Shown here: piece after piece, positions 1,736-57,314 of the stretch
Layout: every line of letters begins with the position of its first letter
Numbering within the stretch: position 1 is the first letter of the stretch
DNA from: Bacillota bacterium
GTDB taxonomy: Bacteria > Bacillota > UBA994
Assembly: GCA_018333655.1 (NCBI GenBank)
Contig: JAGXTJ010000008.1
Coordinates: 62,001 to 126,000, forward strand
DNA length: 64,000 nt
Reading direction: 5' to 3'
Made by a program: the position numbers and the translations under genes
The notes under the pieces: model-generated
Databases searched by the model: none
What the model was told of the DNA's origin: nothing
The model's input: the letters and a program-made list of their open reading frames with translations, nothing else

Positions 1736-3244
1736 TTACTCCTCGCCGCCCCGGTAGGCGCCGCGCAAGAGCAGCACCCCCTGCGTCGAGCTCTGTATTC
1801 CACGGATACTAGTGTGTACGGCTGCCAAGCGCGTCGGGTAGAAGAGAAAGATGCGGTTAGCTTCTTGGTACAGCGTTTCCTGTATCTCTTCATACTCCGC
1901 TAATGCTGCGCTAAGATCGAACAATTGCTCTGCGTACAGGAGCCTGGCCTCTAGTGAGGGACTGAGTGCTAATTCCGGGTCACCCCGCAAGGCCTCACCC
2001 ACTTCACCTGTGTAGGGTATAAAACTGCCCACCCACATATCGACGCCCTGCCCGCTCGCGAGCAAATCAAAGAGCTCTCCTGCCGTATGGCTGACGATTT
2101 CAACCCGTATGTTGAGGGCCGACAGTTGCCGCGCCACTTCTCTGGCTGTAGTGAGGTGTATGTGGCTTTCGCGTGTGTGCAAAGTGACTGCAAAGCCCCG
2201 CGCAAAGCCCGCCTGCCGCAGCAGCTCTTTGGCGTGCGCTAGGTCGTAGGTGTAGGCGGCTTGTTCGGCGTGCCCAAACACCGCGGGGGATACCGGCCCA
2301 TCGGCAGCCTGCCCAGAAATACTAAGTGCCCTAAGCAACCAACTGCGGTCCACGGCGTAGTTCAGGGCTTGCCGCACCCTTACATCACGAAATTGTGGCA
2401 GGTCGCCATTCATGCCAATGTAGTAAAGCTCTTGCCTGGGCAAGGACACCTTGCGCACCGCCGGGTAATCGCGCAGGGCTTCGACCTCACTAGAAGTCAG
2501 ATCATAGATAATCTCTACTTCGCCCCTCTTAAGCATCGCCAAGCGCTCACTAGCCTCACGGACAAAGAAGAAAGTCAGGCCCGTAGGCGCCAAGGCCTCT
2601 TTATTCCAGTAGTTAGCATTTGGCACTAGCTCAAGTCGCTCGCCACCATACCACTGTCTTAACTTGAAGGGGCCAGTCCCCACAGCAGTGTGCGTGAGGT
2701 TGTAGTTGCTGTCCTTAAGTCGTTTTTCTAACTCGCGCGGTGACTTTAAAGAAGCGGCGGGATGTGCAAAGTAGTAGGCTAGGGCGAAACTTGGCCCCGT
2801 GGTCGTGAAGGTAATGGAATAGGGCGAGTTGATTACTATGTCCTCTACGAAGGCGAAAAGATTGCGTCTCGCCATGCCGTTTAAGGGGTCAAGTAAGAAG
2901 TCAAAGTTTACCTTCACGGCCTCTGCGTCTAACTTAGCCCCATCGTGAAACTGCACCCCTTCACGCAAGAGAAAAGTAATGGCACGCCCATCGGGGCTAA
3001 TGCTAAATTCGCGGGCTAGACGGGGCACCAGCGTATTTTTCTCTTCTACGGCCAGTAGTCCCTCAAAGATGGCCTGCTGTATGACAGGAGATAAGTGATC
3101 GACGACATTGAAGGGATCAAGGGATACAGGCTCCCCACCAATAGCTATCAACAAGGGAGAAACTTCTGCTTGGCATCCCGTCAAGGACAAGGGGACAGCC
3201 GCGCACAGTGCTAGGGCCAACAATAAGGCAATGCTTTTCTTCAC
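1736..3244 (-). CDS. ABC transporter substrate-binding lipoprotein, family 5 (peptide/nickel type)
   Basis: Extracytoplasmic binding lipoprotein of the SBP_bac_5 family (oligopeptides, nickel or similar ligands). The N-terminus has Lys-Lys, a hydrophobic stretch and a lipobox LTGC (Cys about residue 24), so the mature protein should be lipid-anchored. Family blocks include SLDPFNVVD, an FHDGAKLDAEAVKVNF region and GTGPFKLRQW. Its 502 residues are normal for the family. The start is a GTG. No permease or ATPase gene is adjacent, so it is an orphan that probably works with a transporter encoded elsewhere. The ligand cannot be predicted. Confidence 0.88.
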   Translation of the reverse strand: MKKSIALLLALALCAAVPLSLTGCQAEVSPLLIAIGGEPVSLDPFNVVDHLSPVIQQAIFEGLLAVEEKNTLVPRLAREFSISPDGRAITFLLREGVQFHDGAKLDAEAVKVNFDFLLDPLNGMARRNLFAFVEDIVINSPYSITFTTTGPSFALAYYFAHPAASLKSPRELEKRLKDSNYNLTHTAVGTGPFKLRQWYGGERLELVPNANYWNKEALAPTGLTFFFVREASERLAMLKRGEVEIIYDLTSSEVEALRDYPAVRKVSLPRQELYYIGMNGDLPQFRDVRVRQALNYAVDRSWLLRALSISGQAADGPVSPAVFGHAEQAAYTYDLAHAKELLRQAGFARGFAVTLHTRESHIHLTTAREVARQLSALNIRVEIVSHTAGELFDLLASGQGVDMWVGSFIPYTGEVGEALRGDPELALSPSLEARLLYAEQLFDLSAALAEYEEIQETLYQEANRIFLFYPTRLAAVHTSIRGIQSSTQGVLLLRGAYRGGEE

Positions 3245-34821: not shown

Positions 34822-35649
34822 TCACTCCTCCTCAACCTTGGGTGAAATGTTAAGCCCGGCTCGCTCATACAGCTCATAGAAATGATGAGTGGGCCCGACG
34901 CCTTTCCCTAGCGGGAATGCATGCTCTATGGCCACAGAAATATAGGCCTTAGCTAGTCTAACAGCCTCTCGAAGCGTGGCCCCCCTCGCTAACTGCGCCG
35001 CGATAGCGGCGGAGAGCGTGCAACCTGTGCCATGAGTATGCACTGTAGCTAGGCGGGTGGAAGTAAAGTGGCTTACCCTCTCGCCATCGTAGAGTACATC
35101 GACGGCCTCGCCGACTAAATGTCCCCCCTTAACTAAGGCCGCGCGCGCACCACGGGCCACAAGGTGTCGCGCCGCCTGTTCCATCTCGTCCAAGGTGGCA
35201 ATAGGGCGGCCGGCAATGGCCTCGGCCTCCGGAATATTGGGCGTCACCAGGTCGGCGAGCGGCAGGAGCAGAGCAACTAACGCTTCCTTGGCCTCGCTCT
35301 GCAACAACTGATACCCGCTCTTAGAGATCATCACCGGGTCTATAACTAAGTTCACGGGGCCATACCTTGGCAGGGCGTCCGCCAAAGCGATGATCGTCTC
35401 GCGACGTGAAACCATGCCGATTTTCACAGCATGCACTGGGATGTCGGAATAGATGGCGTCAAGTTGTGCCAAGATCAGCGAGGGGGCAATATCTTGCACT
35501 GCGAAAACCCCGCAAGTGTTTTGCGCCGTCACAGCGGTGAGCACACTCATGCCATAAACGCCCTGCGCGGCAAAGGTCTTAAGATCAGCCTGGATGCCCG
35601 CCCCACCACTAGAGTCTGAGCCGGCGATAGTGAGAGCGGTGCGCATCAT
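34822..35649 (-). CDS. thiD: Bifunctional hydroxymethylpyrimidine kinase / HMP-phosphate kinase
   Basis: Converts HMP to HMP-PP in two steps. It opens with [21 protein letters not shown] (described in parts), has [11 protein letters not shown] near 110 and the ATP-site [15 protein letters not shown] near 210. 275 residues. It overlaps thiW by 4 bp and lies 3 bp from thiM. Confidence 0.96.
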
Positions 35650-36146
35650 GCCCGACCACTTAAGCCGAATTTTTTAAATACACTCATCTTGAGAGCCGAG
35701 AGCAAAGCGTAGCCCGTCGCACCACCGAGCAGGCTGCTCAGCAAAAAAGGCACCACAAATACAAGGGCGGCAACATCCCTGCCGAGCAGGATTTTGGCCA
35801 CGGGGAAAGCGACGAGAGCGCCGAGTACACCAGTGCCGAAGACCTCTCCTAACACCGCTTTACCAGCACACTTCGTCCGCTGGTAAACTAAGGCCGCCAC
35901 GAATGCGCCGATCATGCTACCGGGGAAGGCTAGTAGCGACCCTGTGCCGAGTAGATTGCGCAAAAGCGACACCGTAAAGGCTGTAAGAACGCCATGTACG
36001 GGGCCGAGCAGCACTGCCGCCACCACATTGATGGCGTGTTGCACCGGGAATAGCCTTGCCCCCGCGAAGGGGATAACTACCCCTGTGGCCGCCACAGTGC
36101 CTACCGCAGCCAGTACTGCAGCTAGGGTGAGCTTTTTAAGATCCAT
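35646..36146 (-). CDS. thiW: ThiW, S-component of an ECF thiazole transporter
   Basis: A small five- to six-helix membrane protein (166 residues) that supplies substrate specificity to an energy-coupling-factor transporter. ThiW is assigned to the thiazole precursor because it recurs with thiM, as here. Markers are [17 protein letters not shown] and [25 protein letters not shown] precedes the ATG at 36146. First gene behind the TPP riboswitch. The shared ECF module (EcfA/A'/T) is not in this window. Confidence 0.92.
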
Positions 36147-36177
36147 CTCGTTTCCTCCTTTTCTTTGGCAAGCAAAT

Positions 36178-36206
36178 AGACGAGCAAGGCGGAAGGCCGT
36201 GCTCGT
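36178..36206 (-). terminator. Riboswitch expression-platform terminator candidate
   Basis: An 11-bp stem with one mismatch built on GACGAGCA / TGCTCGTC, located between the TPP aptamer and thiW. The T-tract after it is short (TATTTG), so attenuation by another fold is possible. Confidence 0.55.
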
Positions 36207-36223
36207 CAAAAAAGCAGTTCATG

Positions 36224-36316
36224 CACTTCCCTACGCTGGCATTACCCAGATCAGGTTAAAGGGTCAAAGAACTCCTAGGTTCTTTATCTCAGCCGGCCTC
36301 TCCAGCTCCCCTGCTC
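36224..36316 (-). promoter_or_regulatory. TPP riboswitch (THI element)
   Basis: On the minus strand the leader contains, in order, GGGGAGCTGG, the CTGAGA box, ACCCTTTAACCTGATCTGGG and TAATGCCAGCGTAGGGAA, the fixed landmarks of the TPP aptamer. It controls thiW-thiD-thiM-thiE-thiC by sensing thiamine diphosphate. A -10-like TATAAG lies upstream at 36345-36340. Confidence 0.95.
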
Positions 36317-36424
36317 ACTATTCACTTGTCTCCTAGCTACTTATACTAAGGTAAACTGACGCGAAACACAAGCACAACTCTACCCGGCAATTCGCCCACG
36401 TTAGCCCCTGGCGACAACGGGCTC

Positions 36425-40111: not shown

Positions 40112-41416
40112 TTAAGAGTTTAGCCGCTTGCGCGCAGCATAGGTCCGCTTCCACGCATACATCGCTAGTGACGCCGCAATGACACCATAGGCGACAAAAG
40201 CGCGGAAGAACTCGCCTAGTTGTGCATCGCCGAGCAAGTTACGGCCCGCCATAGGCGATACCAAGAACAACGTGTGGAACAGAAGGAGGCCGGTGAGTGC
40301 CTGCCCCACAGTGGCCTTGGTGACAGTCGCGCCGCCGATGAGGAGTGCGGCAATGGCAAAAACGCCCACGGATTCATGGCTGCCATAGGTACTGAGATTG
40401 CCAAAGTTAGACAAGAGCAATGCATGCCCCCAAGCGGCCATAACGGTAGAAATAACCATGGCCACGAGCCTAGTGCGGTCAACATCAATGCCAGATACCT
40501 TGGCCACATGCTGGTCTTGGCCCACACTTCTAAAGTCTTGCCCGAGCTTAGTGCTACTGATAAAGCCCACAAAGGCACAACCTAGGCCAATGATAGCGAA
40601 GGTGACAAGGGGTATACTCACCATGGCAAATGAAGAGTCAGGCGAACGCGTCAGCAGTGAGGAGGCCGCGGCGAGTATGGCGCCGACCGCAAAGTACAAC
40701 GCCCGAGGCGTCCTAGGGCGAGAACGGCCCCGTTGCCTAAAGTGCTCCCACAAGCCTATCGCGCCAAGCAGCCCCGCCAAGAGCGCCATAAAGCCCGCAA
40801 AGGTCATAGTGTAGATATTGTCGACAGCTTGCCGAATGATACCGAGGTCCACTGTGTTTAAAATGCCGATACCATGAGGCAAGAGCAACTTCGGGTTACG
40901 CAGCGGGATTACGGTGCCCACCATGACCATCAGCAGCAACATGTAGAGTCCGTTGGCAAAGAAACCGGCCATCATCGAGGTAATCATCTCTTGACCTCGC
41001 GTCTGGTTTAACAGGCGACCAATGAGGATGCCAAACAAAATCGCCATCGGCGTGGCCAGTGCTACGGTCAACAAGACTCCGGACACTCCACCTATGCCCC
41101 AGTGGATTACGAAAATGACAGCTATTTGTGTGGCCATGGCGCCGAGAACAATGGCAAAATTTAGACCAAGGCCTGCCATGACCGGTATGAGCAAGGCTAA
41201 AATCAAGAAGCCATTGCGGGCAATGCGGCTCACCAAGTCCATGGCCACGAAGCCGAGGGGTAATTCGGACAACCACACACCTACTGCGCTGAGCACGACG
41301 AACAAGAGCACGACCATATTGTCAAAGAGGAAGGCCCTGAGGCGAGCGCCTGGCGGCGGGGCCTTAGACACTTTTGCGGCTGGGATTTGCTTAATCTCTA
41401 CTTGCATGTCAATCAC
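40112..41416 (-). CDS. ABC importer permease (BPD_transp_2 type), subunit 2
   Basis: Permease of the branched-chain/simple-sugar/nucleoside class (PF02653): about ten helices with the EMITSMMAGFF region and the conserved VSGIDVDRTRLVAMVIST loop that contacts the ATPase. An N-terminal ~30-residue cytoplasmic extension is present. 434 residues. It overlaps the preceding permease gene by 8 bp. Last gene of the DUF3798 transporter operon. Confidence 0.9.
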   Translation of the reverse strand: MIDMQVEIKQIPAAKVSKAPPPGARLRAFLFDNMVVLLFVVLSAVGVWLSELPLGFVAMDLVSRIARNGFLILALLIPVMAGLGLNFAIVLGAMATQIAVIFVIHWGIGGVSGVLLTVALATPMAILFGILIGRLLNQTRGQEMITSMMAGFFANGLYMLLLMVMVGTVIPLRNPKLLLPHGIGILNTVDLGIIRQAVDNIYTMTFAGFMALLAGLLGAIGLWEHFRQRGRSRPRTPRALYFAVGAILAAASSLLTRSPDSSFAMVSIPLVTFAIIGLGCAFVGFISSTKLGQDFRSVGQDQHVAKVSGIDVDRTRLVAMVISTVMAAWGHALLLSNFGNLSTYGSHESVGVFAIAALLIGGATVTKATVGQALTGLLLFHTLFLVSPMAGRNLLGDAQLGEFFRAFVAYGVIAASLAMYAWKRTYAARKRLNS

Positions 41417-42449
41417 CCCTGCCCACTTGGGTCAAGGCGTAAAGAATAATGCCGTTTGAGACAATTATCCGCGCGATTTCCGCTACGCCTCCCACTGTAA
41501 TTATCTTGTTAGCTACTGGCAACGACACCACCAAGAGGCTTTGGAACAAAAATGCGCCCAAAATAACATTAAGAATATTGGCGCGCTTGACTGTAGCCCC
41601 CCCGATAAGAATTGCCGCGGCAGCCGGGAAACCCATGGTCATGGGTGCTTCATAGAGCTGTATAAAGGCAAAGCTCTGTGAAAATACCACAATACCAACT
41701 GCGCCGAGAACGGTGGACATGATCGTGCCCAGTAGACGATACCCATCGACATTGAGTCCACTAGCGACGGCAAACTGCTTGCTATCACCGACAGCTCGCA
41801 TAGCCATACCTGTCTTGCTGCGTATAAAAAACCACATCAGCAAGCACATCAAGAAAAAGGTCAACAAGAGACCGGTCGGAACCACCACGCCAGCGACATC
41901 GAAAGCCAACAATTCATCTAGCACACTGGCAAAACGCTCTTCGAGGGCAATCGTTACCCGCAAGCCACGGCCAATGGGCCAGCGCATCTCGGGGCTGGTA
42001 AAGGGCATGATGATCCAGCCGATGTTCATTAGTGAGACGATGGAAAAACCAACATAAGTACTAACCATCATTTCAGAACCCTTTACTTTGTTCAGTAGCC
42101 AGCCATAAGCTGCCCCCACTACAGTGGCTAGGGGTATGCTTACGGCGGCCGCAAAAAGTATGGCGGGCATGCCACGCATATCTAACTCAATAGAAAGCAG
42201 GGACCCGACTAGCCCACAGAGGATACCTAGGGGTAAACCGAAATTTGGCCCGATTCCCGAGTTAATAGTGGGCAGCATGGCCAACACAAAAATGCCGTTC
42301 ATTCCTGTGCGCACCAGCGCGGCTGAAAGCAGCGGCCCGAGGGGTATTTCAAAATATGCCGCCCCAAAGACAAGCACGATGAGGAAGCCGATAATTACTA
42401 AGCGGGCGAAACCCAAGTTGTCAACTATGTTCTTCCATAAATTGCCCAC
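41409..42449 (-). CDS. ABC importer permease (BPD_transp_2 type), subunit 1
   Basis: Second PF02653 permease, 346 residues. Blocks include GIGPNFGLPLGILCG and VASGLNVDGYRLLGTIMST, the ATPase-contact loop. The two permeases are paralogous and should form a heterodimer. It starts directly behind the ATPase stop codon. The GIGPNFG segment resembles the DUF3798-linked and BMP-type nucleoside transporters; the ligand is not inferable. Confidence 0.9.
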   Translation of the reverse strand: MGNLWKNIVDNLGFARLVIIGFLIVLVFGAAYFEIPLGPLLSAALVRTGMNGIFVLAMLPTINSGIGPNFGLPLGILCGLVGSLLSIELDMRGMPAILFAAAVSIPLATVVGAAYGWLLNKVKGSEMMVSTYVGFSIVSLMNIGWIIMPFTSPEMRWPIGRGLRVTIALEERFASVLDELLAFDVAGVVVPTGLLLTFFLMCLLMWFFIRSKTGMAMRAVGDSKQFAVASGLNVDGYRLLGTIMSTVLGAVGIVVFSQSFAFIQLYEAPMTMGFPAAAAILIGGATVKRANILNVILGAFLFQSLLVVSLPVANKIITVGGVAEIARIIVSNGIILYALTQVGRGD

Positions 42450-44051
42450 CTACACTACCTCCCTGCCGCGCAGCTTGTGGTAATTGCCGGCCATCATCAA
42501 ACCAAAGTCAACATCGTTATCGTCTGGTGAGAGCACGCCTTCGACCGCACCATGACAGACGATGGCAATGCGATGACATATGGAGCGGAGTTCCGCTAAC
42601 TCGCTCGAAGTCATAACAATGGTCATCCCGAGCTCGCGGTTAAGTCGCACTAGCTCTTCTAAGACTATCTTCTTGGCGCCTACGTCAATACCACGCGTCG
42701 GCTCCGACACAAAGAGGATCTTAGGGTCTAGAGCTAAAGCACGGGCAATACAGACTTTTTGCTGATTGCCGCCGCTTAAGCGCCGCGTCAACTGCATGGG
42801 CCCCGTACAGCGAATGTCTAACTCCTTGATTTTTTCCATGGCGTGTCGCCTAATTTTCCCATAGGCCAGGTGCGAAAATGGGCCGAAGCGGTACAAGAAA
42901 CGGTTGCGCATTTGCATGGCCGTAAAGGCAATATTCATTTCAATGGAGGAATCGAGCAAGAGGCCTACCCCACGGCGATCTTCTGAGACAAAGGCTAAGC
43001 CGGCTTGGTAGGCGGCCTTAGTATCGTTTAACTGCAGTGGCTTGCCAAAAACACTGACCTGCCCCGCGGCCAGATACAACCCCATGATGCCGTTGGCTAT
43101 GCCAAGCTTGCCTTGCCCGCCTAGACCACCAATGCCGATTATTTCGCCCTCAAAGACATCGAGGTCAACCTTTTGCACTTCTTCTCCCGGCATAAGCACT
43201 TTAAGGCCACGCACAGACAAGGCGATGCCTTCTTTGACTTTGTTTTCACTCGCCTGCACGATCTTCTCTACTTTGCGCCCTACCATAAGCTCGGCCAGCT
43301 GAAAGGTATTCGTTTCCGTCTTGGGCAAGGTGCGTACTAACTCACCGTCCCTGAGTACGGTGATATTATCGGCGATGGTCATTACTTCGTCGAGACGATG
43401 GGTGATAAAGAGAATGGCGATTCCAGAACGGGCGATTGCCTGCATGGCCTTGAGCAGAGTATCGGCTTCACTTTCTGTGAGCACCGCCGTCGGCTCGTCA
43501 AAGACAATGATCTTCATATTGGCCTTGTCGATTTCTCGCGCAATCTCGACAAATTGCATCAGGCCAACCGGCATCCCCGCGATTTTAGTCCATTCCTCAA
43601 TGTTCAGGCCTACAGTGTCGAGGGCTTTGCGGGCGTCGCGGTTCATCGCGTCCATGTCAAGGCTCTCGAGTTTCGGCCCAAAGAGGCGGCTAGCAATATT
43701 TGGCCGCGTAATCTCACGATTAACTTTGATGTTCTCGGTAATCGTAAACCCCGGAATAAGCATAAACTCTTGGTGCACCATGCCGATACCTAGGTTCATG
43801 GCATCATATGGCGAGGTAATACTCACGTCTTTACCATCGATAACAATTTTGCCTTCAAAGCCGCCTGTACTATGAATGACCGACATTCCAAAAAGGATGT
43901 TCATAAATGTCGACTTGCCGGCGCCATTCTCACCGAGCACGGCGTGTATTTCCCCTGCTTTTAGCTGTAGATTGACATCTTTCAGTACACGGTTGCCCGC
44001 GTAGACCTTGCCGATGTTCTGCATCTCAAGCACATAGTTGTCTTGTGCCAC
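42450..44051 (-). CDS. ABC importer ATPase with two nucleotide-binding domains
   Basis: Sugar/nucleoside-type ATPase with tandem ABC domains. The first has GENGAGKSTFMN (near 38) and LMQFVEIARE in place of the usual LSGGQ, then VFDEPTAVLTE. The second has GIGGLGGQGKLGIANG (degenerate Walker A), LSGGNQQK and FVSEPTRGIDVGA. Degenerate second P-loops are normal in this class. The GTG at 44051 after AAGGGGGTTACGCC is preferred over an upstream ATG at 44117. 533 residues, somewhat longer than the usual ~500. Confidence 0.9.
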   Translation of the reverse strand: MAQDNYVLEMQNIGKVYAGNRVLKDVNLQLKAGEIHAVLGENGAGKSTFMNILFGMSVIHSTGGFEGKIVIDGKDVSITSPYDAMNLGIGMVHQEFMLIPGFTITENIKVNREITRPNIASRLFGPKLESLDMDAMNRDARKALDTVGLNIEEWTKIAGMPVGLMQFVEIAREIDKANMKIIVFDEPTAVLTESEADTLLKAMQAIARSGIAILFITHRLDEVMTIADNITVLRDGELVRTLPKTETNTFQLAELMVGRKVEKIVQASENKVKEGIALSVRGLKVLMPGEEVQKVDLDVFEGEIIGIGGLGGQGKLGIANGIMGLYLAAGQVSVFGKPLQLNDTKAAYQAGLAFVSEDRRGVGLLLDSSIEMNIAFTAMQMRNRFLYRFGPFSHLAYGKIRRHAMEKIKELDIRCTGPMQLTRRLSGGNQQKVCIARALALDPKILFVSEPTRGIDVGAKKIVLEELVRLNRELGMTIVMTSSELAELRSICHRIAIVCHGAVEGVLSPDDNDVDFGLMMAGNYHKLRGREVV

Positions 44052-44130: not shown

Positions 44131-45621
44131 TTAACGGGCGGAGAAATCAATTGAACTTGACAAGAAGAGGAAGTAATGGTTGTACGTCCCCCGCGGTGTA
44201 GTCAAGTTAGAAAGAGTAACTGGACCGCCAGCCATATCCATGAGTATCCCCTCGAGGGTAATTAAGTCCACGCGCCCCATTGTCTGACCATTGAGTACCG
44301 CCATAGCGTACTCAACCCCGGCTTCGACGTAGAGCATATTGACGGGCACCGGCCAAGTGGAAACGCGCTTGTCGGCATTAACGCGGCGCAGGGCGTCCCT
44401 AATCAAGCCAATAACAAAGGGCAGATCCCCTTGTCTTGCCTGTGGGATAGAGAGGCCTAGTGCTCCAGGTAGAGCGTGGTAGGGAGACGGGCAGCACTGC
44501 TCGGGGAAGATCGCTCCGCCAGCAATGACTTGCCTAATCATGGGTTCCATCATGCTGCAGTTCGTGCCAAAGAATGCTGTGGCGGTGCCAAACTGGGCAA
44601 TGCGGCGGGGAACATCTTCCATAATGAACTGCTGAGTTCCTGGTACGCCGCCCTCGCCTGTGGGGTCTGGGGAGTCGACAAAGACAAATCTCATGCCGAG
44701 GCGATTAGCTGTCTGCTCCATAAGCTGCCTACGCTCAAATAGCATGGCGTTGGCCATATGACGGGCAAAGGAGTAGTGCACGAAGGTTGTGGCACCCATG
44801 CGGTGCGCCTGCTCTACGATCGTTCTGCCGCGAGACATATCATCGGTCTGCAAGACGATGTCGGCGCGGGCGGCGATGACGTCGCGGTCCTCGCCAGGAG
44901 TACCGGCAATAATAAGCATATCGGGACGCAGTCTGCGCACTTCGTCAATGCCGGCAGCAGTACCGACCACGGCCTGCACAATGACAATGGCGCGTACGCT
45001 TCTATCGGCAGCGAGGGCGCGAAGATTAGAGATAGTTGTCTCCGTCTCAGTTGTAAAACGAGCAGGGTATGTAGAGAGCACAATGCGATCGCCGTACTTG
45101 CGCTTCATGTTTTCAGCAGCGCGTAGTTCTTCTTCATTTTGTACGGCGGTGCCCGTCATGACCCCAATTCTAAAGGTGCCGGGCGGGGCGGGTCCCCTAA
45201 CTACTACGGTTTGATGGCGCTCAACCCAGTTTACGGCGGCCCCGAGCGTCTCCGACACGAAACGCAGCGGCACCATGGTGCGCCCGTTCATAACGGTGGG
45301 GGCAACATCGAGAGTGCGGGGCTGCCCGTTGACCGTGGCATTACGGCTGCCGATAACTAACGACACCGTGGTGCCAGCCCGAGTTCCCGTCACTGTGCTG
45401 GTGGCTTCGGCCCAACCGACGCTCGCTCCTAGCCCTTCAAACAAAGCCCTAAAGGGTACGAGCACCCTGCCTCCACTGATAACCGGCGGAACCTGCAAAT
45501 TGAGGAATTCGCCATCTAGCATCACGCGGATGGCCGATGCCTCTGACACTTGCATGTTCGGTACTAAGAACCCGACTGCCAGCAAGGCGACTACAGAAGC
45601 GATTATTGCTACTTTCTTCAC
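44131..45621 (-). CDS. DUF3798 substrate-binding protein with N-terminal copper-amine-oxidase-N 'stalk' domain
   Basis: Exported protein of 496 residues. A signal peptide (1-27) is followed by a Cu_amine_oxidN1-type stalk domain (about 30-145: RVLVPFRALFEGLG ... TMVPLRFVSETLGA). The rest is DUF3798-like (FRIGVMTGTAVQNEEELRAAE to the C-terminus), with a periplasmic-binding-protein fold (DMLIIAGTPGEDRDV, VHYSFARHMAN, AFFGTNCSMMEP). The stalk probably tethers the binder to the cell wall, replacing a lipid anchor; no lipobox is present. GTG at 45621 follows GGGGAGGG. It heads the four-gene importer operon. Ligand unknown. Confidence 0.82.
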   Translation of the reverse strand: MKKVAIIASVVALLAVGFLVPNMQVSEASAIRVMLDGEFLNLQVPPVISGGRVLVPFRALFEGLGASVGWAEATSTVTGTRAGTTVSLVIGSRNATVNGQPRTLDVAPTVMNGRTMVPLRFVSETLGAAVNWVERHQTVVVRGPAPPGTFRIGVMTGTAVQNEEELRAAENMKRKYGDRIVLSTYPARFTTETETTISNLRALAADRSVRAIVIVQAVVGTAAGIDEVRRLRPDMLIIAGTPGEDRDVIAARADIVLQTDDMSRGRTIVEQAHRMGATTFVHYSFARHMANAMLFERRQLMEQTANRLGMRFVFVDSPDPTGEGGVPGTQQFIMEDVPRRIAQFGTATAFFGTNCSMMEPMIRQVIAGGAIFPEQCCPSPYHALPGALGLSIPQARQGDLPFVIGLIRDALRRVNADKRVSTWPVPVNMLYVEAGVEYAMAVLNGQTMGRVDLITLEGILMDMAGGPVTLSNLTTPRGTYNHYFLFLSSSIDFSAR

Positions 45622-45955
45622 TAAACTTACCCTCCCCTTAGTTCTTCCCACTAGTGAAATGACTCTGCCTCCCCCAGAACATGGTGCGAGCGCATCCCCC
45701 CCCCTAAAATCTCCCCCATCTTGGTGCTTGAAGTCGCGCCTGTGGGCTGAACATTTGCGCATGTGGTACAATGTGTACTATTCAGAATTAAAAGCAATAT
45801 TCCTGCTTGCTAGACACAGTTTCGCGACTTTTTTTATTGGCCCAGACTTTTATTGCTGCTTCCCTCTTTGCCCCCGCGAACTCCGACCGCTACCCTTGCC
45901 CGAGAAAAAGATTTCGGCTATGCTGAGCACAGAAACACGCGAGAGGAGAATTTAC
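45622..45955. other. 334-bp divergent intergenic region
   Basis: Holds the leaders of the minus-strand DUF3798 operon and the plus-strand ACT-type gene. A run of nine C at about 45696-45705 and a TACAAT hexamer at 45767-45772 (no good -35) are the only features noticed. No gene or conserved RNA was recognised. Confidence 0.4.
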
Positions 45956-48610: not shown

Positions 48611-49612
48611 TTACTCGAGCAGCGCGCGTAGCCGAGCCCCTGCCTCTAGGCTTAACTTAAAGATAGCTAAATCGGCCTCTAGCTCTGCTGTCGAGCCAAA
48701 GCCTCCCGCATAGCCATTTAGCCGTGACACCTCGGTGCTGTCTAGTAACCCGGCGAGAGTTTTGTGCTCCGCCTCAACCTCTTTAAAAACTGCGGGTAGG
48801 CGACGCAAGTAGTATTTTTGGTGGTAGGCTTCGGCCAGATGAAACTTGTCCAGCAAGCGTATTTCGGTCAGCACATCGCCATAGCGCATCTGGTACTCCG
48901 CCTTGCTTAAGATAGCGACATCTTGATCTTTTTTTTCGGCGCAGAGAATTAGTGACATATACTGACGGCCATACGCGCGCGCCCGCGGGCGATGACTATG
49001 CCAGAAAATCTCCAGCAATTCTTTGAGCCCTACGCGCGTCATATCGTAATCGATCTGCACCACCTCGGTGTGGTCGCCCATACTGTGGTAAGTAGGACTC
49101 ATGGTTGTCCCACCGGCATAGCCGACACGAGTACGCACCACGCCGTTCACTAGCCCAAACTGGGCATCTGGGCCCCAAAATCAGCCCATGCCAAGCGTGA
49201 TGGTAGAGAGAGGCTTAAACATAAGCGCAGCCGAATTGGTGCAATACCTGAGTCCTAGTGGCGCGGGGCCATCGGTAAAGACATGCCCGATATGCCCCCC
49301 GCAGTTCGCGCAGTTAATCTCGCGTCGCGTCATGCCAAAGCGCAGGTCGACATCTTCTTGCAAGGCCTGCGACGAGAGCGGCTCTGTAAAACTTGGCCAG
49401 CCAGAGCCCGATTCGTACTTAGTGCTAGAGCTAAACAAAGCGGCACCACAAGCCCCGCACACATACACACCTTCTGCTTTGTGGTGGTAGTAGGCGTTAG
49501 TAAAGGGCGGCTCGGTGCCACGCTGCCGTAAACATCGGTACGCCTCTGGGCTTAAAATCTGGCGCCACTCCTCCTCGCTCTTGGCAACGCGAAAGGGATG
49601 TATGTTGCTCAC
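48611..49612 (-). CDS. msrBA: Fused MsrB-MsrA methionine sulfoxide reductase with in-frame UGA at the MsrA catalytic position (candidate selenoprotein)
   Basis: Repairs oxidised methionine, with MsrB acting on the R and MsrA on the S sulfoxide. Residues 1-135 are MsrB: zinc pairs CGACG and CANCGG, and catalytic Cys in RYCTNSAAL. One frame then runs on through TLGMG-[UGA]-FWGPDAQFG into a complete MsrA domain (TRVGYAGG, PTYHSMGDHTEVVQIDY, EAYHQKYYL). The UGA at 49183-49181 is residue 144 and replaces the Cys of the invariant GCFWG. The MsrA part has no C-terminal resolving Cys, as expected of selenocysteine-type MsrA. Full product 333 residues. Without decoding, a 143-residue MsrB ends at that UGA. 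The cupin gene lies 2 bp upstream in the same operon. A disrupted MsrA is the alternative, but the rest of the domain is intact. Confidence 0.8.
49153..49165 (-). promoter_or_regulatory. Candidate bacterial SECIS hairpin
   Basis: Just downstream of the in-frame UGA the message can fold GCCCA-GUU-UGGGC. The apical loop begins with G, 20 nt after the UGA, within the range known for bacterial SECIS elements. The stem is short (5 bp), so this is suggestive only. Confidence 0.45.
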
Positions 49613-56294: not shown

Positions 56295-57314
56295 TTAGGG
56301 CAGTGGCTTGCCCAATTCTTGGTATATTTTGTTGCGAATCTCGACGAGATTAAGGGCGACGTAAGCGGCCTCGCCTGCTGCCCTAAAAGCTGCTCTGTCC
56401 ACGTCGGTGATGATGGTCATGCCACCGGCAATGGCTTCCTCGCGCGCGGCGGCTATCCCTGCCTCCATGCCACGAGAGGTCTCAAGGCCTGCTTTTTCGT
56501 TCTCTTCGATGAGGATTTTTTGCAGATCTTCCGGCAGTGAATCAAACCAAGCCCGCCCGACGATGGAGAAATTGATGAGCAGGATGTGCCCAGTTTCACT
56601 CATGTAATCGGCGACCTCCCAGAGTTTCGCACCGGAGACATTGCGGTAGACAAGCTCTGCACCATCAATAGCCCTAGTCTGCATAGCCTGGTACACTTCA
56701 CCAAAGGCCAAGGCAACTGGAGTCGCACCGATAGCACGCACGGACTCCTGCCAGATGGGAGCACCAGGCGTTCTAATGCGCAGACCCGCCAAGTCATTAG
56801 GATGCCTAATGGGTACATTAGTCACCATGTGTCTCGGTCCTTGCACCCAGTTAAACGATAGCACCTTGATGCCAAACTTAAGCTCTAGTTCCTTAATCCA
56901 CTGCTGCACGGTGGGCGAAGTCTTAAGCTTCGCTACTTCTTCTATCGTGTCGACAAAGAATGGTGCGTTCATAACGGCGATATGTGGCACATACATGCCG
57001 AGACGGGCCGAGTCGGTATTCTGCCCGACATTAGCGCCCATGCGCAATTGTTCGATAATGTCTTCTTCTCTACCTAGCTGAGCACTTGGCGACACTTCAA
57101 TGGTCAACCTGCCATTTGACCGCCTATTTACGGCCTCGGCCCAGTTCAAAAACCCCTGATGGTAAGGCTCTGTCGGTGCTAGTACATGGTTGAAGCGCAG
57201 AACAAACTTCTCTTCTGGCTCCCTAGCCTGGCAGCCCACTGTTAAGAGTAGTGCGGCAAGTAAGGTTACACTCATCAGGACTGCTATGATTCTGCGGATA
57301 TTTGTTGTTACCAC
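56295..57314 (-). CDS. dctP: TRAP transporter substrate-binding lipoprotein
   Basis: DctP-type binding protein, 339 residues, with a signal sequence and lipobox LTVGC (Cys about 28), so it is lipid-anchored. Family blocks are PYHQGFLNWAEAVNRRSNG, the RIRTPGAPIW block holding the Arg that grips a substrate carboxylate, and GEVYQAMQTRAIDGAE. The carboxylate-binding Arg fits a sugar-acid ligand. Followed by a strong hairpin before dctQ. Confidence 0.92.
   Translation of the reverse strand: MVTTNIRRIIAVLMSVTLLAALLLTVGCQAREPEEKFVLRFNHVLAPTEPYHQGFLNWAEAVNRRSNGRLTIEVSPSAQLGREEDIIEQLRMGANVGQNTDSARLGMYVPHIAVMNAPFFVDTIEEVAKLKTSPTVQQWIKELELKFGIKVLSFNWVQGPRHMVTNVPIRHPNDLAGLRIRTPGAPIWQESVRAIGATPVALAFGEVYQAMQTRAIDGAELVYRNVSGAKLWEVADYMSETGHILLINFSIVGRAWFDSLPEDLQKILIEENEKAGLETSRGMEAGIAAAREEAIAGGMTIITDVDRAAFRAAGEAAYVALNLVEIRNKIYQELGKPLP

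Follow-up and report, generated by a model that had tools for sequence, protein, structure and literature searches.

The window (the whole 64,000-nucleotide stretch of DNA that was analysed) carries on its minus strand an operon whose first gene encodes an exported protein with an N-terminal stalk and a DUF3798 head, followed on the same strand by a two-cassette ATPase and two BPD_transp_2 permeases (Table 1). Residues 35-140 match PF07833 (E 2.1e-36, 124.6 bits against a gathering cut-off of 24.2) and residues 150-420 match PF12683, or DUF3798 (E 5.3e-101, 338.1 bits against a cut-off of 24.6). A preliminary description of this DNA had placed a PF07833 stalk before a DUF3798 domain, and this was borne out, both Pfam matches lying far above their cut-offs. 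The same description counted two PF07833-like repeats; two half-repeats are indeed present (Smith-Waterman score 90; the highest of 2000 shuffles was 44), but Pfam counts them as a single domain. The observation on this gene is thus confirmed as real.

Table 1. Features of the stalk-DUF3798 receptor gene, its operon and two contrasting receptor genes in the window
Feature	Position	Strand	Basis or remark
Solute-binding protein with lipobox LTGC, no stalk (contrast)	1736..3244	-	family by reading only
Permease 2, BPD_transp_2	40112..41416	-	Pfam
Permease 1, BPD_transp_2	41409..42449	-	Pfam
ABC ATPase, two ABC_tran cassettes	42450..44051	-	reading frame open from 44117; start inferred to be the GTG at 44051
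Stalk-DUF3798 receptor gene, whole	44131..45621	-	496 aa, GTG start at 45621
DUF3798 ligand-binding head, residues 147-496, type I PBP fold	44134..45183	-	Pfam, structure model
Stalk half-repeat 2, residues 93-146	45184..45345	-	Pfam, repeat comparison; stalk model pLDDT 90.7
Stalk half-repeat 1, residues 31-92	45346..45531	-	Pfam and repeat comparison
Signal peptide (residues 1-30, cysteine-free) with AxA site just ahead of residue 31	45532..45621	-	by eye
Ribosome-binding site GGGGAGG of the stalk-DUF3798 gene	45631..45637	-	sequence
DctP-like solute-binding protein with lipobox TVGC, no stalk (contrast)	56295..57314	-	family by reading only

The signal sequence closes with VSEASA, followed by IRV, an AxA site of the signal peptidase I type directly before the stalk, as judged by eye without a trained predictor. 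Cysteines occur only at residues 355, 376 and 377; with the first of them at residue 355, the protein has no lipobox and is not marked as a bacterial lipoprotein, in agreement with the earlier claim of a signal peptide lacking a lipobox. Both findings that could have spoken against the preliminary description, a lipobox and an N-terminal domain other than PF07833, were looked for, and neither was found.

The whole-protein model (ten aligned sequences) reached pLDDT 84.1 and pTM 0.80. Its head has the fold of PDB 3qi7, which has the same kind of head (Z 34.5, rmsd 4.2, 342 aa, 22% identity), and the next matches are type I binding proteins (5bra, Z 20.3; LivJ, 19.7; LsrB, 18.8). In the model of the stalk alone (pLDDT 90.7), a single chain holds both half-repeats and two helices; its top Foldseek match has E 7.7e-6, and it resembles the stalk of E. 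coli copper amine oxidase (1qak_A; Z 11.1, rmsd 1.9, 76 of 117 model residues, 26% identity). The predicted folds are those of an amine oxidase stalk and of a 3qi7-like DUF3798 protein. The E. coli stalk (1oac, 1qak) differs in being a domain of a periplasmic enzyme, and we know of no wall anchoring by it.

The preliminary description took the protein for the receptor of an ABC importer, a role that is supported by the ATPase/permease operon and by the type I PBP fold of the modelled head. Receptors of the LsrB, RbsB and BMP type share this fold and the two-cassette importer ATPase, but they differ in that the operon described here has no curated-level NCBIfam match for its head, ATPase or permeases. 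A BMP/PnrA nucleoside receptor was rejected, the head having no Bmp (PF02608) match at E 0.1. An LsrABCD autoinducer-2 importer was rejected on missed NCBIfam equivalog cut-offs (LsrA, 292.2 of 586 bits; LsrC, 24.1 of 388; LsrD, 26.7 of 500), and the head had no NCBIfam match to LsrB at E 0.1. The head fold is not decisive as to ligand, since LsrB, LivJ and the receptors for ribose and other sugars all score about Z 18-20 against the model. A riboswitch as a pointer to the ligand was likewise discarded, no Rfam element being found upstream of the stalk-DUF3798 gene. The sole Rfam match in positions 36000-64000 is a TPP riboswitch at 36210-36322 (minus strand, 72.8 bits), upstream of a gene at 35646-36209. 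Also in the window, msrA- and msrB-like genes (by reading) lie side by side at 48611-49612 on the minus strand.

A scan of named genomes yielded nine relatives. In four Bacillota MAGs (BS524, UBA994, HKB212 and X3_MetaBAT.12), a stalk-DUF3798 gene shares a contig with the ATPase and at least one permease. In four Clostridia (L036-L039) the ATPase/permease operon recurs, and the head is 51-53% identical in alignment, but a lipobox and linker take the place that the stalk has in the protein described here. A Spirochaetales MAG (L035) has a DUF3798 protein with a plain signal peptide. The codes BS524 and HKB212 may point to The Cedars and Hakuba, both sites of hyperalkaline springs; passages of PMC9751293 do not name the codes.

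DUF3798 matches occur in 67 of 398 genomes of the phylum, which the named relatives place as Bacillota. Open frames of at least 500 aa with this domain were found in six genomes, all of family f1, an uncultured group to which the source genome belongs; all other frames are at most 428 aa long. Six of the eight f1 genomes have an intact stalk-DUF3798 fusion, a seventh (G166) has a match cut by the contig end and the eighth (G191) has none. The preliminary description had raised the point whether other DUF3798 proteins bear the stalk: among the loci read from these 398 genomes it is present in f1 and was not seen elsewhere, and DUF3798 proteins outside f1 have a lipobox or a plain signal peptide. 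In a set of 75 distinct DUF3798 heads of at least 300 aa, 6 are stalked, 42 have a lipobox and 27 (one from a Spirochaetales MAG) have neither, the lipobox calls being made by pattern and not by a trained predictor. Among the loci read, at least L067|121 has a lipobox that looks false (a membrane helix). Plain-signal DUF3798 proteins with neither lipobox nor stalk occur in several families (among L040-L069). One genome, G209, has five DUF3798 matches (L108, L104, L109), three of them close together on one contig and one with internal stop codons.

The architecture extends well beyond the one gene first noticed and is spread over the genome. Fifteen PF07833 matches were found in the source genome (2.2 Mb, 96.8% complete), and nine of these proteins are solute-binding proteins (SBPs) of four Pfam families: six SBP_bac_5, one PBP_like_2 (PstS-like), one NMT1/Phosphonate-bd and the DUF3798 protein. 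By eye, an AxA-like site lies just before the stalk in all nine, and eight have no lipobox-like motif. The exception is Opp6, a stalked OppA (L025 2589-4784) with a lipobox-like AVGC at residues 15-18 (by eye), which could carry both anchors, stalk and lipid; its relative in G018 (L129) has no cysteine at that site. The other six PF07833 proteins comprise a rhodanese, an alkaline phosphatase, an Amidase_3, a DUF1343-like protein (by reading), a surface protein with Ig-like domains and one without a further Pfam match. In the rhodanese protein (L020 8041-9480) the stalk is fused to rhodanese domains. Of two adjacent large surface proteins (L015 and L233, on G000 C24), the first has a stalk at its end and the second SLH repeats, which makes the modules look interchangeable.

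Importer permeases were located by PF00528 (20 matches) and PF02653 (6), and the genes around them were read. Among the 19 receptors read in all, those of the window included, nine are stalked, seven have a lipobox (L018, L019, L020, L030, L213 and the two contrast genes of Table 1) and three have neither (L017, L021, L029). One stalked OppA, L028, has no adjoining importer genes in the stretch read.

PF07833 matches number 11-19 per genome across the eight f1 genomes, all of which encode one or more full-length stalk-OppA proteins. Lgt is encoded in all eight and SLH domains in six, so the stalk coexists in f1 with the usual anchors. The presence of Lgt and of lipobox SBPs rules out the stalk as a substitute for a lost lipoprotein pathway, and SLH in six of the genomes rules out a lack of other wall modules as its cause. 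In one SLH protein that was read (L232), SLH is C-terminal, to our knowledge unlike OmpM. Two f1 genomes encode a stalk with a thermonuclease-like domain, by reading (L110 742-2085, L111 1399-2583).

Beyond f1, stalk-OppA proteins occur in at least families f30 (G143, G173) and f133 (G348), with matches that begin where the stalk-OppA profile begins; these are the families among the matches listed, from a profile search that scored at most three candidates per genome. G173 has two further stalk fusions, to Peripla_BP_2 (Pfam). PF07833 itself is found in 333 of the 398 genomes. Of the 52 PF07833 matches in G102, G289 and G374, all from the same class, 14 were read, with no SBP-like protein among them; the three proteins run against Pfam were a GHL10 and two Amidase_3 proteins that also have AMIN and SH3 domains.

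Among five orthologues of the stalk-DUF3798 protein, mean identity is 71.6% in the stalk and 77.6% in the head, against 36% in the signal peptide. In both stalk and head dN is well below dS, which is partly saturated, and the stalk, like the head, is under purifying selection. Within the genome, stalks borne by heads from different Pfam families share 39-60% identity; between those heads it is 18-36%, about background. A tree was built from 69 stalks and 118 columns, in which many forks are unresolved and the bootstrap had not settled. On it, the SBP label in f1 needs four gains or losses, three of them forced by well-supported branches. The DUF3798 stalks group with the rhodanese stalk (99/92), the OppA stalks with one another (94/93), and the NMT1-like stalk with the long-branched stalk of the surface protein L015 (99/92). 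This suggests that the stalk was recruited to receptors more than once, in a tree that cannot tell gains from losses.

Stalked proteins of the source genome also differ in composition. The 15 stalk proteins, counted with their signal peptides, have a median K/(K+R) of 0.12 (one member, L012, is at 0.45) and a net charge of +0.76 per 100 aa; six lipobox proteins have medians of 0.34 and -1.92, and 77 cytoplasm-like proteins have 0.42 and -0.88. Stalk and lipobox proteins differ with p = 0.0016 for K/(K+R) and p = 0.0021 for net charge, although these and the other p values given for charge and lysine overstate the case, the proteins being related and not independent. The operon ATPase has 31 Lys and 31 Arg, in contrast to the lysine-poor exported stalk proteins (window and L002-L030). 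Arginine is still charged at pH 11. Relatives with and without the stalk can be compared within PF12849. Seven of the eight f1 genomes each have one stalked PstS-like protein, with K/(K+R) of 0.00-0.07. Six of these seven have an intact lipobox PstS homologue, at 0.33-0.57, and five lipobox proteins read in these genomes, which we take to be TupA-like, are at 0.35-0.64. Left out of the PstS comparison were L228 and L230 (the G136 gene is split over two frames, and a wrong one had been read) and the head length of L227 (a stray second domain hit); left out of the TupA-like set were L206 and L207. Net charge did not separate the classes in the PF12849 comparison (p = 0.18 and 0.087, including two false rows).

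Across DUF3798 heads, net charge per 100 aa runs from -0.29 to +0.86 in the stalked class (n=6) and from -11.1 to -1.1 in the lipobox class (n=42; p = 9e-5); heads with neither (n=27) have a median of -2.05 (-6.7 to +2.1) and are not clearly apart from the stalked ones (p = 0.088). OppA heads have median charges of +0.30 when stalked in f1 (n=22), -5.8 with a lipobox (n=19) and -3.1 with neither (n=9); stalked OppA heads outside f1 (n=5) have a median of -1.35, the lowest being the acidic protein of G348 at -4.7 per 100 aa. In f1, stalked receptors are about neutral and, in the lysine-poor genomes, nearly free of lysine, whereas their lipid-anchored relatives in the same genomes are more acidic and keep lysine. 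Stalks of normal lysine content occur in G018 (K/(K+R) 0.40-0.67); this shows that the stalk as such does not go with lysine loss, and rules it out as a by-product of that loss.

In monoderms, importer receptors are known to be lipid-anchored or fused to the permease. We propose, with a probability of about 0.6, that the stalk instead holds receptors non-covalently at the wall, which among the readings weighed here is the best-supported. The receptor would be exported and cut by signal peptidase I just before the stalk. The stalk would then bind secondary cell wall polymer through non-covalent contacts, like the PF07833 domain of OlpC, for which polymer binding is reported. Bound in this way, it would keep the DUF3798 head within the zone of the wall; there the head would capture a small ligand and hand it on to the complex of ATPase and permeases specified by the three genes that follow. 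All nine stalked receptors of the genome would be held by this means, the stalk having apparently been recruited more than once. This proposal draws on the lipobox found in the Clostridia operon where f1 has the stalk, on the nine SBPs among 15 PF07833 proteins with AxA-like sites in all nine and a lipobox-like motif missing from eight, on a stalk conserved nearly as well as the head beside a variable signal peptide, on the separate groups in the stalk tree and on the near-neutral charge of f1 stalked heads next to acidic lipobox ones; near-neutral heads would suit a place among anionic polymers.

Little was found in the literature on PF07833 function. There is precedent for wall binding. PMC4582956, in a passage citing Pinheiro et al., reports second-hand that a domain anchors Clostridium thermocellum OlpC to secondary cell wall polymers, and a passage of PMC3413522 identifies the OlpC domain as PF07833. 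Such domains are listed among wall anchors in a passage of PMC11557425, and one in PMC4137172 describes a surface proteome in which PF07833 proteins occur, some of them also bearing wall hydrolase domains. The OlpC/ScaG scaffoldins, with their cell surface-binding module, are thus alike in having PF07833 at a Gram-positive surface with reported polymer binding, but they bear a cohesin for cellulosome enzymes and no importer receptor, and their likeness to the stalk is that of the same Pfam family only. The experimental precedent of OlpC and the genome-wide pattern together make wall binding the best-supported account of the domain here.

Several observations weigh against it. The linker between stalk and head is short, which bears against easy reach of a wall-bound head to the permease. 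The charge contrast separates stalked from lipobox heads, not clearly from plain-signal ones. The lipobox-like AVGC of Opp6, the acidic stalk-OppA of G348 and the lack of importer genes beside L028 weaken the reading further, as does the dimerising PF07833 domain of the Paenibacillus lautus Cu/Zn-SOD (PaSOD, 8IMD), an exported protein with PF07833 at its N-terminus like the receptors here. According to passages of PMC10432803, that domain forms a homodimer (SEC-MALS and crystal) and the protein was not detected in the medium; a passage of PMC11334425 also terms PF07833 a dimerisation domain, from predicted structures. The main rival explanation is accordingly that the stalk pairs receptors, which would stay in place because the wall traps them beneath it or the permease holds them. 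We consider it unlikely: the PaSOD domain, borne by an enzyme, is shorter, with one helix per chain against the two half-repeats and two helices of the present stalk, and PaSOD-like pairing could therefore close within a single chain. The stalk model resembles 8IMD weakly (Z 3.4, rmsd 3.1, 56 aa) and the E. coli amine oxidase stalk well, and dimerisation leaves the loss of the lipobox unexplained.

An uncut signal sequence could also act as membrane anchor with the stalk as a rigid spacer, much as the BMP receptor L029 of the same genome seems, by reading, to use a plain N-terminal helix; the AxA-like sites before all nine stalks and the poor conservation of the signal sequence make this improbable. 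We give equally little credence to a stalk without any role in retention, the receptor being freely secreted or trapped. DUF3798 heads with neither lipobox nor stalk in other families (27 of 75), whose charge is not clearly unlike that of stalked heads, speak for it; purifying selection on the stalk, and its presence on SBPs of four Pfam families, speak against.

No report of PF07833 attached to binding proteins was found among the papers listed in searches of the open-licence literature, and DUF3798 occurs there in two papers, in passages that give no function. On a more far-reaching reading, f1 might have two receptor zones, one lipid-anchored at the membrane and one stalk-anchored in the wall, recorded in lysine content and charge; importers might draw on a pool of wall-bound receptors, and PF07833 might be a general, repeatedly recruited replacement for the lipid anchor, all of which we put forward tentatively and as rather doubtful for now. 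With a putative wall module on nine of the 19 receptors read, the function of PF07833 becomes directly testable, as does how far from the membrane a receptor can reach, and stalked and lipobox PstS proteins in one genome offer matched pairs that serve as built-in controls. A widespread and little-understood domain would thereby gain a testable job.
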